A DNA stretch of 59,447 nt from Elusimicrobiota bacterium (GTDB lineage Bacteria > Elusimicrobiota > Elusimicrobia > Elusimicrobiales > UBA9959). Within the stretch, counting starts at the first letter, position 1. The number at the start of each line of letters is the position of its first letter. The notes under the pieces were generated by a model, which was not told the origin of the DNA, did no database searches, and saw only the letters and a program-made list of their open reading frames with translations. Both the position numbers and the translations under genes were made by a program. Shown here piece by piece: positions 43,968-49,210 of this stretch. The DNA lies in assembly GCA_029267355.1 (NCBI GenBank), contig JAJUJA010000005.1, positions 1 to 59,447 on the forward strand. The letters are read 5' to 3'.

Positions 43968-46052
43968 ATGCCTCAATTTTCCCTTAACGCCGACCTGAAA
44001 TATCTCAAAGGAGTAGGTCCTGCGAGAGCCGCGCTTTTGTCTTATCTTGGATTAAAAACAGCAAGAGATTTACTCCGCTATCTGCCTTCAAAATGGAAAG
44101 ACAGGAGAGGCTTGAATGAACCTCTGCCGCATTATGTCGAAAAAGAGTCTGTTTTCAAAGGGAAAGTCATATCTGCCTGTCAGGTCTATACCTCCTCTGC
44201 CGTGCTTGTTTTCAAGGCGCTGCTCAAAGGCGACAAAGGCGAAGCTGAAGCGATTTTTTTCAGAAAAAAAAAAGGCAGATTTGATCCCCTGATACCCTTA
44301 AAAAAAGATTTCACACCTGAAAAAGAATTCTGGCTTATGGGTGAACCTGAACCTGATTTTCTCAAAACCAGGATAAAGGTATCGGAATATTATCCGGCTG
44401 ACAAAGAAAATATTTTTCTGCATGCCGGCTCAATTATTCCTGTGTATCCGTCCACTCAAAAGCTGAGCCAGAAATTTCTCAGAGAGCTTGCCTTCAGGGT
44501 GATAAGCGATTATTTGCCTCTTGAATGCGAATTTTTGCCGCAAGAAATCTTGATAAAAAGAGGATTCCTGCCGGCGCAAGAATCCATAAAAAACATACAT
44601 TTTCCGCCCTCCCTCAACGCTCTTGAAAAAGCCAGAGAAAGGGCCGTTTATGAGGAATTTTTCCTCATGCTTTGCGCCTGGGGCATAAAAAGAGCTCAAA
44701 CGCGGGTTTCAGACAAGGGCCGTATTTACGAAGTTAAAAAAAATCTGCTTTCCCCGTTCAAAAACAGGCTCGGATTTGAATTTACGGCCTCTCAAAAAAA
44801 AGCGATAAATGAGATTTTTTCAGATATGCGCTCAAGCGCGCCGATGTCTAGGCTTTTACAGGGAGATGTCGGCTGCGGCAAGACTGTGGTAGCTTTAAGC
44901 GCGGCCCTGCTGGCCTGCGAAAACGGCCATCAAACCGCCTTTATGGCGCCGACTGAAATTCTGGCAAGACAGCATTATGAAACCATATCCGCATTTTTGA
45001 GCGGACTCAATGTTAGGATTGCGCTTTTGACCTCTTCCATAAAACCGTCCGAACGCGAATTAATAAAAAAACAGGCGCAGGCGGGCGAGATAGACATTCT
45101 CATAGGCACTCATTCTCTGATAGAAAGGGAAATTCTGTTCGAATCTCTGGGGCTTGTTATAATTGATGAGCAGCATAAATTCGGCGTAAGACAAAGAGCC
45201 GCCTTGAGAGGAAAGGGCTTTAATGCTGATATGCTGATAATGACAGCCACTCCGATACCAAGGACCATGGCTTTGTCATTGTACGGAGACCTTGATATCT
45301 CCATAATAAATGAGATGCCTCCCGGAAGAAAGCCGGTAAAGACATATACGGCATCCAGAAGAGAAGCTTTTGAAATGCTTGAAAAGGAAATAAAAGCCGG
45401 CGGGCAGGCCTATGTAGTGCATCCGGCTATAGAGGAAAATGCGGCCGAAATAAGGTCTGTCAAAAAAGAATTTGAGTTTTTTTTAAAAGCTTATCCGCAA
45501 ATAAAAGCCGCTATGGTATACGGCACGATGAAATATTCGCAAAAAGAAGAAGTAATGAGGAAATTTGCCGCCAAAGAGATAAAAGTTCTTTTTGCCACGC
45601 AGGTCGTTGAGGTCGGCATAGACGTTAAAAGCGCGACTATGATGATAATACAAAATGCGGAAAGATTCGGACTCGCCTCGCTGCATCAATTGAGGGGACG
45701 AGTGGGCAGAGGCGAAAGAGAATCGGTATGTATAGCCGTAAGCGAAAACCCCGGACCTTTGGCGTCTGAAAGGCTTAAGGCCTTCTGCCGCTTTTTAGAC
45801 GGCTTTTCCCTGAGCCGGCAGGATGCCATGCTCAGAGGCCACGGCGAAATTTTCGGCGTGAGACAGCATGGAGATATTGAATTTGTTATAGCGGACATAT
45901 ACTCAGACAGAGATATTCTTATGAAGGCATATGAGGATAAACAGGAATTGATGCAAAATGACCCTCTGCTTAAAAATCAGGAAAATGCGCTTTTAAGAAA
46001 AAAAATGCTGGAAATGTACGGGGACAAGCTGAAACTTATAGAAGCGGGCTGA
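43968..46052 (+). CDS. recG: ATP-dependent DNA helicase RecG
   Basis: 694 residues. RecG reverses stalled forks and branch-migrates recombination intermediates. The N-terminal wedge domain (about 1-240, LKYLKGVGPARAALL) is followed by a superfamily 2 helicase core with Walker A LLQGDVGCGKT, DEQH box VIIDEQHKFGVRQR, motif III MTATPIPRTMALS and motif VI QLRGRVGRGE. Length is normal. A single gene with its own promoter, convergent with the signalling genes to the right. Confidence 0.96.
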   Translation: MPQFSLNADLKYLKGVGPARAALLSYLGLKTARDLLRYLPSKWKDRRGLNEPLPHYVEKESVFKGKVISACQVYTSSAVLVFKALLKGDKGEAEAIFFRKKKGRFDPLIPLKKDFTPEKEFWLMGEPEPDFLKTRIKVSEYYPADKENIFLHAGSIIPVYPSTQKLSQKFLRELAFRVISDYLPLECEFLPQEILIKRGFLPAQESIKNIHFPPSLNALEKARERAVYEEFFLMLCAWGIKRAQTRVSDKGRIYEVKKNLLSPFKNRLGFEFTASQKKAINEIFSDMRSSAPMSRLLQGDVGCGKTVVALSAALLACENGHQTAFMAPTEILARQHYETISAFLSGLNVRIALLTSSIKPSERELIKKQAQAGEIDILIGTHSLIEREILFESLGLVIIDEQHKFGVRQRAALRGKGFNADMLIMTATPIPRTMALSLYGDLDISIINEMPPGRKPVKTYTASRREAFEMLEKEIKAGGQAYVVHPAIEENAAEIRSVKKEFEFFLKAYPQIKAAMVYGTMKYSQKEEVMRKFAAKEIKVLFATQVVEVGIDVKSATMMIIQNAERFGLASLHQLRGRVGRGERESVCIAVSENPGPLASERLKAFCRFLDGFSLSRQDAMLRGHGEIFGVRQHGDIEFVIADIYSDRDILMKAYEDKQELMQNDPLLKNQENALLRKKMLEMYGDKLKLIEAG

Positions 46053-46085: not shown

Positions 46086-46208
46086 GCAAAAAAAAATCCA
46101 GCGTCGCACGGCTTAGCATTGTGTCTTGGGGACTATGCTTTGGGGTTTGGGGGTTAGGGGGGCAGCACATGCAACGCTGGATAAATCTTTCTGTTTTTAG
46201 AGAGCCTC
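46086..46208 (-). ncRNA. Candidate C-rich structured ncRNA with long closing stem and T run
   Basis: This 213-base gap between convergent genes holds an element bounded by ATCCAGCGT and ACGCTGGAT (46096-46104 and 46074-relative pair at 46174-46182). On the minus strand the stem extends to 13 pairs with one U-G pair and is followed directly by nine T residues, like a factor-independent terminator. Inside lie three C runs (CCCCCCTAACCCCCAAACCCC) and a nested hairpin GCAT...GTC-CCCAA-GAC...ATGC. Upstream on that strand TTTTGA (46242-46237) and TATAAC (46220-46215) are 16 bases apart, giving a start near 46208. It may instead be only a bidirectional terminator for recG and the kinase gene. The plus strand has quadruplex-forming G runs. 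Confidence 0.4.
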
Positions 46209-46214
46209 GCTACA

Positions 46215-46242
46215 GTTATATTCTACAAACAATAACTCAAAA
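46215..46242 (-). promoter_or_regulatory. Possible promoter of the C-rich ncRNA
   Basis: On the minus strand TTTTGA and TATAAC with 16-base spacing. A modest match, useful mainly because it is placed correctly for the structured element at 46086-46208. Confidence 0.3.
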
Positions 46243-46265
46243 AAAACTCAATTTTATTTCAAAAA

Positions 46266-47741
46266 TTAGAGTTTCTCTTTCTCTATTTTTCTTCTGAATA
46301 TCTTGACTATTTTGGCGGCTTTTTTGATTGACTTGTCTATTATTTTGAGGCCATTTTTTTCGTCGACATCTTCCTTTATGGACTCGCCTATAAGAGAAGT
46401 GTATCCCGACATAACCGCCAGCGTATTGTTTATATCATGGGAAAGATCGCTTGTTATTTTTTTAATTTTCTCTCTGGCTTTCATCAAAGCCAGCTCGCTT
46501 TCTATCTTTTTTATACGGCTTATATCCCGGCCGATGGCAAGCACATACTTTACCCGCCCGGTTTCGTCTTTTATCGGAGCCTTCACCACATTGACAGTTC
46601 TGCCCCTCCATTCATAGACTGCATTTATGGTCTGGCCTTCAAGAACCTTTTTTTCATCCTCTCTTATCTTGCCGGCAAGCTCTTTTCCAAACAGGTCATA
46701 ATCAGTGCGGCCTATCATCTCTTTCCTTGACTTTTTCATAAAATGTGAACAGGCCTTATTTGCCCCTACGTAAAAGCCTCCAGCATTTTTTATATATATC
46801 ATATCCGGAGCTATTTCATATATTTTGTGGAGTATTTCTTTCTGGGAGGCTATTTTACCGAAAAGCTCCCTTTCCCTGCCAGAATCTCTTATACTGCCTA
46901 TTATCTTGTAAGGTTTCCCGTTTTTGAAAATCACCGAAGATTTCTGGTCGGCGTAAAAAAAAGAGCCGTCTTTTTTCATTATCCTGTATTTAAGTATATC
47001 CCTGGTTTTACCGCTTTTAACGGCGCTGTTAAAGGCCTTCATAACATAGGGCAAATCCTCTTTATGCGTAAACTCAAACATATTATGGCCTATCACATCG
47101 CTTTCCTCATAACCGTAGCTTTTGTACCTCCTGTTCATATATTCTATTTTCCCGGACATATCTGCCATATAGATTATATCTCTGGCATTTTCAACTATCT
47201 GCCTCAAATTTTCATTCTGATCTTCAATTCTTTTGAGATTAAGCAGATTATAAACTATCATGGCATAAAAGCCGGCCATAACAGACATAAAATTCAATTC
47301 TTTTTTGCCGTAACCGCCTTTCCTGTCGGCTACGGCCAAAACGCCCACTGTATTGTTTTTTATGACCGCCGGGACAGCCAGAAAGCTTTTCATCCTTATG
47401 TGGCCTTCAGGCAGTTTTCTTTCTCCCATATCAGAGGGCAAATCGTTTGAGATAAAAGGCTTTTTGCTTTTTATGGCAATGCCGTAGACCGTATCAAAAT
47501 TCTTGAAAACTATCTGCCTGTTTTCAACTCTGCACTCACTGATGACATTTTTGGATAAGGTTGGAACTATAAGATAGCCGGTTTTATCATCCAAATAGCC
47601 GGCAAAACCGTACATACTCTGCGTTTCCTTCTTTATTATTCTCAGAACTTTCTCTGATATTTTGAAAAAATCAGGGTCTTTGTCCGTAAGGTAGGAAAAA
47701 ATAAGTTTTTTAAGAGATTTCTGATAATGGCATTCTCTCAT
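46266..47741 (-). CDS. GAF-PAS-PAS sensor protein ending at the phosphoacceptor domain (no kinase catalytic domain)
   Basis: 491 residues. A GAF domain (about 15-165) is followed by two PAS/PAC domains (about 185-300 and 305-425) and a phosphoacceptor helix SDLSHDINNTL with His435. The protein stops 56 residues later, at the end of the helical hairpin; there is no HATPase domain, and none follows in the 213 bases downstream in any frame. It could be phosphorylated by another kinase or act as a dimerising decoy. The preceding gene, an OmpR-type regulator, overlaps it by four bases, so the pair forms an operon. Deletion of the catalytic domain is a second possibility. Confidence 0.88.
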   Translation of the reverse strand: MRECHYQKSLKKLIFSYLTDKDPDFFKISEKVLRIIKKETQSMYGFAGYLDDKTGYLIVPTLSKNVISECRVENRQIVFKNFDTVYGIAIKSKKPFISNDLPSDMGERKLPEGHIRMKSFLAVPAVIKNNTVGVLAVADRKGGYGKKELNFMSVMAGFYAMIVYNLLNLKRIEDQNENLRQIVENARDIIYMADMSGKIEYMNRRYKSYGYEESDVIGHNMFEFTHKEDLPYVMKAFNSAVKSGKTRDILKYRIMKKDGSFFYADQKSSVIFKNGKPYKIIGSIRDSGRERELFGKIASQKEILHKIYEIAPDMIYIKNAGGFYVGANKACSHFMKKSRKEMIGRTDYDLFGKELAGKIREDEKKVLEGQTINAVYEWRGRTVNVVKAPIKDETGRVKYVLAIGRDISRIKKIESELALMKAREKIKKITSDLSHDINNTLAVMSGYTSLIGESIKEDVDEKNGLKIIDKSIKKAAKIVKIFRRKIEKEKL

Positions 47742-48427
47742 ATTTCCAGTATATATCCGTGGCCGCTTACTTTTTTCAGGCTTTCTTTCAAGCCCAGTTT
47801 TTTTCTAAGGCTTGAAATATGCTGTTCTATGGTATGAGGGCCTGAAGAAACTATTTTTTCATAGCCCCAGACAGCATCCATAATTTTTTCCGAAGGCACT
47901 ATTTTCCCTTTCTCCTTTACAAGTATAAGGATCAGATCAAACTCCTTTCTCGTAAGTTTGATCTCTTTTTTGCCGCAGAAAAGTTTTCTTGAGTCAAGGT
48001 CAAGGCTGAATTTCCCTGCCGATATCAAATTTTTTCCTTCATTCCTTTCAGGATAAGCTCTTTTGATCAAATTCTTTATCTTGGCGGCCAAAACCTGCAT
48101 TGAAAAAGGCTTAACAAGATAATCATCGCTGCCCTTGTGATAGCCCTCTATCATATCAAGTTCTGAAATCCTTTTACCTGACATCATAATTACCGGAGTT
48201 CTTGAAAATTTAGGATTTTCCCTGATTATCTTTATAAAATCAAAACCGCTTAGGCCGGGCATTTCTATGTCGGTGATTATAATGTCCGGAGAAATTTTGG
48301 AAATTGCCGACAGGGCCGCTTTTACATTTGGAAAACCGTATACGGAAAATCCGGCCGTTAAGAGGTACCTCTTAAGCATATCCAGGAAGTCTTTGTCATC
48401 GTCGGCTATAAGAACTTTGAAACTCAT
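47738..48427 (-). CDS. OmpR/PhoB-family response regulator
   Basis: 229 residues. The receiver domain (1-120) has acidic residues ADDD, phosphoacceptor Asp53 in ITDIEMPG and the signalling Lys in YLVKPFSM. A winged-helix DNA-binding domain (about 130-229) follows: TRKEFDLILIL, SSLRKKLGL and SGHGYIL. The ATG at 48427, next to a GGGGGC site, is preferred to the longer reading from 48466. It is the first gene of an operon with the truncated GAF-PAS kinase, its likely partner. Confidence 0.93.
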   Translation of the reverse strand: MSFKVLIADDDKDFLDMLKRYLLTAGFSVYGFPNVKAALSAISKISPDIIITDIEMPGLSGFDFIKIIRENPKFSRTPVIMMSGKRISELDMIEGYHKGSDDYLVKPFSMQVLAAKIKNLIKRAYPERNEGKNLISAGKFSLDLDSRKLFCGKKEIKLTRKEFDLILILVKEKGKIVPSEKIMDAVWGYEKIVSSGPHTIEQHISSLRKKLGLKESLKKVSGHGYILEI

Positions 48428-48436
48428 AAGCCCCCT

Positions 48437-48466
48437 TATATACCTCCCCCCCAAATACAAAGACAA
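48437..48466 (-). promoter_or_regulatory. Promoter of the response regulator operon
   Basis: On the minus strand TTGTCT (48466-48461), an 18-base spacer containing seven G residues in a row, and TATATA (48442-48437), nine bases before ATG at 48427. Confidence 0.55.
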
Positions 48467-48532: not shown

Positions 48533-49210
48533 ATGCTTGAGGGTGAAATAGTAATAGACAAAGATGAAAAGCTTGAAGCGATGACCGGCGCCATAAATAG
48601 GCTGGCTCATGACTACAATAATTTTCTCGCCGCCGTGGAAGGATATACGGAACTTATTTTAAGAGAAACTCCGTCAGCGTCACAGACGGCTTCGGACTTG
48701 GGCGAAATAAAGACGGTTTGCGACAAAATGGCTGCCTTGAACAAGAAATTGCTTTCCTTTGCAAGAAGAAAAAGTCCGCTAACTGAAGAAATAAACCTCT
48801 GCGAACTGATAGATCAAAATGCCTCTTACTTTTCAAAAAAGTGCCAGAATCATATTTTCAAGGTCAGTAAAAATGACGTATTTTTAAAGGGCAGTTCCGA
48901 TCAGATAACGGAACTGATATCTCATTTGCTTGAAAATGCCTGTTTATTTTCACCTGAAAAATCGGAAATAGAGCTTGGATGCTCCTATGAAGGAAAGAAT
49001 CCGTTTTTATTTGTAAGGGACCATGGTCCCGGTTTTCCAGACAACCCGGTTCGTTTTTTCTATCCCTATGAAACAACAAAAAGCGAAAGGTTGGGACTGG
49101 GTCTGAGCTGCGCTTACGGCATAGCCATGCGACATAAAGCCTTTTTCAGGATAATAAAAACCAGCGAGCATAATGAAATAAGGACGGTTTTTGAGGCGGA
49201 TAATGGCTAA
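48533..49210 (+). CDS. Minimal histidine kinase without sensor domain
   Basis: 225 residues. It consists only of a phosphoacceptor hairpin (INRLAHDYNNFL, His26) and a HATPase domain (N-box LISHLLENACLF, G1 VRDHGPGFP, G2 RLGLGLSCAYGIA). No sensing or membrane region exists, so the signal must come from a partner. It faces away from the truncated kinase that lacks this catalytic domain. Its 3' end overlaps the tandem receiver gene by eight bases, so the two are co-translated and likely work as a pair. Confidence 0.88.
   Translation: MLEGEIVIDKDEKLEAMTGAINRLAHDYNNFLAAVEGYTELILRETPSASQTASDLGEIKTVCDKMAALNKKLLSFARRKSPLTEEINLCELIDQNASYFSKKCQNHIFKVSKNDVFLKGSSDQITELISHLLENACLFSPEKSEIELGCSYEGKNPFLFVRDHGPGFPDNPVRFFYPYETTKSERLGLGLSCAYGIAMRHKAFFRIIKTSEHNEIRTVFEADNG

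Follow-up and report, generated by a model that had tools for sequence, protein, structure and literature searches.

A stretch of Elusimicrobiota DNA of 59,447 nucleotides (the window) contains, on its minus strand, a gene for a previously undescribed, small structured RNA (sRNA) that is conserved across one family of little-studied bacteria. The gene spans window positions 46088-46262 (-) and lies in the gap between recG and a sensor gene. Sequence comparison among relatives shows the element to be a structured RNA with a conserved promoter architecture, a boxA-like motif, and linkage to a signalling pair. The favored explanation, held with slightly better than even confidence, is a trans-acting sRNA that is activated by a response regulator, protected by boxA, and equipped with a C-rich strand that pairs with G-rich mRNA sites. 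The features of the locus are as follows.

Ending at 46052, plus strand: recG, one flank of the sRNA.
46088..46096, minus strand: U9 tract (nine T), the probable transcript end, with predicted intrinsic termination.
46096..46112, minus strand: 3' arm of the closing stem, placed by arm complementarity, alignment, and covariation.
46116..46138, minus strand: apical hairpin of the predicted fold, variable in sequence among copies.
46142..46162, minus strand: unpaired C-rich strand of 21 nt, CCCCCCUAACCCCCAAACCCC (also written CCCCCCTAACCCCCAAACCCC), recognized by invariant columns, the fold, and paralogues.
46165..46182, minus strand: 5' arm of the closing stem, a 16-pair helix with covariation in 50 copies.
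46193..46206, minus strand: boxA-like antiterminator GGCTCTCTAAAAAC, a motif kept in the copies and in rRNA leaders of the family.
46220..46225, minus strand: -10-like box TAGAAT, at a fixed spacing from the last repeat across copies.
46236..46262, minus strand: operator of three 11-bp TTGAR repeats, TTGAAATAAAA-TTGAGTTTTTT-TTGAG, the sole genome-wide match to TTGARN6TTGARN6TTGAR in the window's genome.
46266..47741, minus strand: sensor with GAF-PAS-PAS-HisKA domains and no HATPase_c (Pfam).
47738..48466, minus strand: OmpR/PhoB-type response regulator (Pfam Response_reg and Trans_reg_C), the probable activator.
48428..48455, minus strand: G-rich start region of the response regulator, a possible pairing site and the strongest duplex of the 287 start regions sampled.

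A sequence-only reading of this region had proposed a C-rich structured RNA, and this part is strongly supported by homologues, covariation, and the element's own conserved promoter. The 13-nucleotide stem arms that it described are present at 46096-46108 and 46170-46182 (92% complementary), and the nested hairpin, the CCCCCC, CCCCC, and CCCC runs, and the T9 tract (46088-46096) all occur on the minus strand. The upstream promoter-like pair that it named is not a plain sigma-70 pair, as the promoter scan found none there, but a TAGAAT box does lie behind the three 11-bp TTGAR repeats.

The minus strand folds better than dinucleotide shuffles, with a z of −4.45 (0 of 200 shuffles as good), and the transcript portion alone reaches −5.02. 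The homologue and covariation check returned relatives with strong stem covariation. The alignment comprises 50 of the 51 distinct copies; locus L009 was left out because it is near-identical to L008. RNAalifold on these 50 copies found the closing stem alone, with compensatory changes in 11 of 15 pairs. The closing helix is paired in 97.7% of alignment cells, with changes on both sides in 11 of its 16 pairs, and the apical helix in 80.0%, with compensatory change in 8 of 11. Taken together, 27 pairs that include the named apical hairpin are paired in 90.6% of cells versus 83.1% in shuffles, and sliding the same pairs by 1-3 columns leaves 30-44% of cells paired.

A covariance model matched 50 of 340 Elusimicrobiota genomes at E ≤ 0.01, 45 of them at E ≤ 1e-7, the E-values of this model being rough. 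All 50 belong to the window's own family, which is represented by 59 genomes. The element is single-copy in the window's genome, and a DNA search located it also in congeners and in other genera. Copy number is one or two, in tandem; tandem arrangement is frequent in the main clade, where every copy has a promoter to itself. A loop-pattern search of GTDB contigs returned 58 stretches, of which 14 carried off-phylum titles and were rejected, the stem being absent by eye and no convincing R1 match being found (best E only 0.057 in the R1 control on these 14 and one viral match). The remaining stretches have Elusimicrobia or Elusimicrobiota names, or belong to 'bacterium' bins with the same stem. 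The phage and plasmid records searched gave no real match to the element; the one viral-contig match is without the stem and was dismissed as chance. No Rfam match was obtained with 4227 models in gathering and permissive modes, the best scores over the element being far below gathering, and a literature search for small or noncoding RNA in Elusimicrobi returned no work on Elusimicrobiota sRNAs (its mentions of 'sRNA' were unrelated by title and abstract opening). For these two reasons the sRNA is called undescribed.

Within the element, conservation is highest in the C-rich strand. This strand is unpaired in the predicted fold, accounts for most invariant columns when the 50 copies are aligned, and has three C runs in all 50 copies. 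The exact motif CTCCCTAACCCAAACCC is present in 5 of the 59 family genomes. Weak matches at other loci (L140-L151) appear to be paralogues whose stems are quite different and in which the type of C strand is kept, such as CUCCCUAACCCAAACCCCCAAG or a series of four to five C runs separated by stretches of A. Within this second set (L140-L148 and L149-L151), loci L140-L142 and L146-L148 are without an evident TTGAR operator.

Upstream of the element, TTGAR-like repeats recur with a period of 10-12 nt. Four repeats are present in 31 of the 51 copies, three in 7, and two in 12, so that 50 of 51 have two or more; the last copy has no such repeat in register. A -10-like hexamer was found in 47 of 51 copies, each time beginning exactly 15 nt downstream of where the last repeat starts. 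This layout, with 11-bp direct repeats overlapping the -35 region at a fixed distance from the -10, is typical of PhoB-type activated promoters. A strict triple repeat had 19 matches in 12 genomes, 17 of which fall at 11 sRNA promoters and two elsewhere (L152 and L155), and the backward control had 0. Fifteen further genomes gave 5 operator matches, none at an sRNA (control 1). The regulon is therefore small rather than strictly confined to the sRNA, since the matches at L309, L152, and L312 precede other genes; the gene at L312 is, by eye, a response regulator. By eye, the operator also stands ahead of likely secreted-protein genes at L308, L309, and L152, and the products at L308 and L309 look alike. 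These genes could be a second output of the regulator.

A boxA-like motif occurs 5' of the stem in 43 of 49 copies, versus 1.8% of mononucleotide shuffles. Inspection by eye shows that five of the six misses hold a variant lengthened by a single T; among the 43 motifs, one seems spurious. Pattern matching found the corresponding rRNA boxA in 11 of 13 16S leaders from family genomes. A sequence resembling GYTCTTTAANA is thus located early in the predicted transcript, as it is in the rRNA of the same organisms. In PMC5725501, this consensus is gamma-proteobacterial, and the survey states that non-coding RNAs were left aside. Should the boxA of such a short sRNA be functional, control by Nus factors would reach further than the leaders of rRNAs and mRNAs.

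An OmpR/PhoB-type response regulator, accompanied by a sensor, was found near the sRNA in 13 of 13 loci, 12 by clustering and the last at L176. The order is regulator-sensor-RNA in loci of types g1, g11, and g13, and RNA-regulator-sensor in types g3, g4, g9, and g12; in genome G003 (g2), another reading frame lies between the RNA and the regulator. In genome G020, recG is on another contig (C32), yet the sRNA still adjoins the sensor and regulator (L179), which ties it to the signalling pair and not to recG. Ten sensors of the 13 loci were searched for domains (the window, L171, L172, L174, L175, L177-L180, and L184). PAS and HisKA were present in all ten and GAF in nine, and HATPase_c was found in none at E ≤ 0.001. 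Retention of the phospho-acceptor domain without the ATPase makes this conserved partner sensor unusual in itself. At 48533-49210, the window encodes a further, small protein with HisKA and HATPase domains, separate from the sensor. The best NCBIfam models for the window regulator are PhoB, both below cut-off (152.7 bits versus 270, and 151.9 versus 296.2). A phosphate (PhoB/Pst) regulon was rejected, as the PhoB equivalog cut-off was missed and the window neighbors tested are not pst or phoU. The adjacent signalling pair probably switches the sRNA on.

The proposed pathway begins with the ATPase-less GAF/PAS-HisKA sensor, which would feed the adjacent PhoB-type response regulator. The regulator would bind the 11-bp repeats and activate the minus-strand gene, yielding a trans-acting sRNA with a predicted length of about 125 nt. 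Close to its 5' end, the boxA may load Nus factors, allowing an untranslated C-rich transcript to escape Rho. The RNA is predicted to fold so that the long stem keeps the 21-nt C-rich strand unpaired, and to end at the stem and U9. Next, the C-rich strand would anneal to G-rich stretches of mRNAs, for the most part at ribosome binding sites. The mRNA of the regulator itself is probably among the targets in the window's genus, and this would close a negative feedback loop.

Pairing of the C-rich loop with Shine-Dalgarno sites, raised by the sequence-only reading, is a plausible candidate mode of action. When the duplex energy of the C strand was calculated against 287 start regions (~365 kb) of its own genome, the adjacent response regulator ranked first at −32.1 kcal/mol, and the runner-up had −25.3 kcal/mol. 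The start sites for this calculation were picked by a simple rule. Among 1000 shuffles of the C strand, 26 reached the energy of the regulator site, and reversing the strand gave −29.3, so much of the regulator signal is plain G-richness. The start region of the regulator ranked 2 of 76 in G002 and 3 of 50 in G017, and 21 of 62, 24 of 67, and 13 of 74 in G003, G020, and G006, respectively. In G013 and G005, scored against separate backgrounds, the regulator was not notable as a target and looks leaderless. At L174, L175, L177, L178, L180, L181, and L184, the response regulator genes are apparently leaderless, with a TATAAT a few bases before the ATG. Since the regulator looks leaderless in the g3, g4, g9, and g12 loci, there would be no Shine-Dalgarno sequence to mask in these loci. 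The response regulator was rejected as a universal target on its ranks in other genera and on these leaderless genes. Because the ranks fall elsewhere and shuffles match, regulator feedback can be taken as a lead within the window's genus and not as a family-wide rule. Cofolding the full-length RNA and the regulator leader was uninformative, since the method does not represent base pairs formed within a closed stem. As a target signature, TTAGGGG before ATG was rarer than its backward control in 4 of 4 genomes, and no shared target gene was seen among the open reading frames found in 30 loci.

No clearly conserved mRNA target emerged from the signature search or the start-region duplexes, which speaks for a different reading, in which the C-rich strand captures a protein that binds C-rich single-stranded RNA and not an mRNA. 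The model would be CsrB/RsmZ capturing CsrA under two-component control. Rho is the obvious candidate partner, and cold-shock or KH proteins are others. Across lineages, conservation extends not to one exact sequence but to a pattern of 3 to 5 C runs, each 3-6 long, with AA, AAA, or UAA in between, which agrees with a decoy, and its boxA would protect the RNA itself from Rho. Nevertheless, 21 nt is rather little C-rich RNA for a complete Rho site, and within the main clade the strand is nearly invariant, beyond what a loose decoy requires. Capture of a protein is possible but doubtful. A fuller form of this idea would make the element a new RNA class, under two-component control and with a ribosomal-type boxA, in which a one-sided C-run strand on a replaceable stem would serve as a decoy that draws off Rho or another protein binding C-rich RNA, while the RNA is shielded by its own boxA. 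This form is rather improbable; if true, the sensor could tune transcription termination or translation globally.

The element could also act in cis and not as a free RNA, either as a terminator or by forming the leader or an attenuator of the response-regulator operon. It shares a strand with the signalling genes, lies immediately ahead of the regulator in g3, g4, g9, and g12 and immediately behind the sensor in g1, g11, and g13, and its stem with U9 in the window would also end the sensor transcript. However, the very shift from before to behind the operon speaks against a cis role, as do the element's own promoter, the tandem copies with a promoter each, the second terminator hairpin that often precedes the next gene, and the TATAAT that the regulator of g4-type loci has next to its ATG. 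This reading is considered unlikely. The sequence-only reading had further offered a bidirectional terminator or a DNA quadruplex between convergent genes. The stem with U9 and the four plus-strand G runs (with one loop of 10 nt) are indeed present, but the plus strand shows no folding beyond chance against shuffles (z −0.33) and lacks a T run behind the stem. Most loci are not between convergent genes; in most other genera the element is upstream of the regulator, is served by a promoter of its own, and often carries a second terminator hairpin. The stem is preserved by covariation, and the C strand remains unpaired. The four-run quadruplex pattern with loops of 1-7 occurs in 0 of 50 copies, and in 8 of 50 when loops of up to 12 are allowed, so that a conserved DNA quadruplex is unsupported. 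A terminator or quadruplex is highly improbable.

Several characterized RNAs resemble the proposed trans-acting sRNA in part. Cuckoo/CcsR-type RNAs are multicopy sRNAs of Alphaproteobacteria that present an anti-SD-like C-rich motif in CCUCCUCCC hairpin loops, unlike the long stem with a one-sided C-run strand seen here. CsrB/RsmZ under GacA have a two-component operator that serves almost only sRNAs, and their repeated unpaired GGA motifs bind CsrA; the operator usage and repeated unpaired motifs are alike, but the motifs here are C runs, not GGA. By analogy in manner of working, the nearest known systems would be GsrN and LhrC, with which the element shares an unpaired conserved C-rich seed and its own promoter in a predicted free sRNA. 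To our knowledge, no sequence link exists between the sRNA and either of them. GsrN of Caulobacter is a stress-regulator-controlled sRNA encoded near its regulators, with an exposed C-rich loop as its most conserved part that pairs with G-rich leaders. It differs in its control by an ECF sigma factor, its structure, and its occurrence in Alphaproteobacteria (PMC5869019). LhrC1-5 of Listeria (PMC4132741, PMC5880928) is an sRNA present in several copies that requires the LisRK two-component system, with redundant CU-rich sites masking a Shine-Dalgarno; it differs in having UCCC motifs in several loops and five copies, and boxA is not mentioned in the portions of PMC4132741 used. The present element adds a strongly supported sRNA family of Elusimicrobiota, together with its likely regulator, operator, and sensor.

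Many g4-type copies (L012, L013, L014, and others) contain a second large hairpin 3' of the main stem, GCCCCGCCGGG...CCCGGCGGGGC-T6. Its loop has recurring AGACTCC and GTAAGGC motifs and is possibly a second interaction loop.
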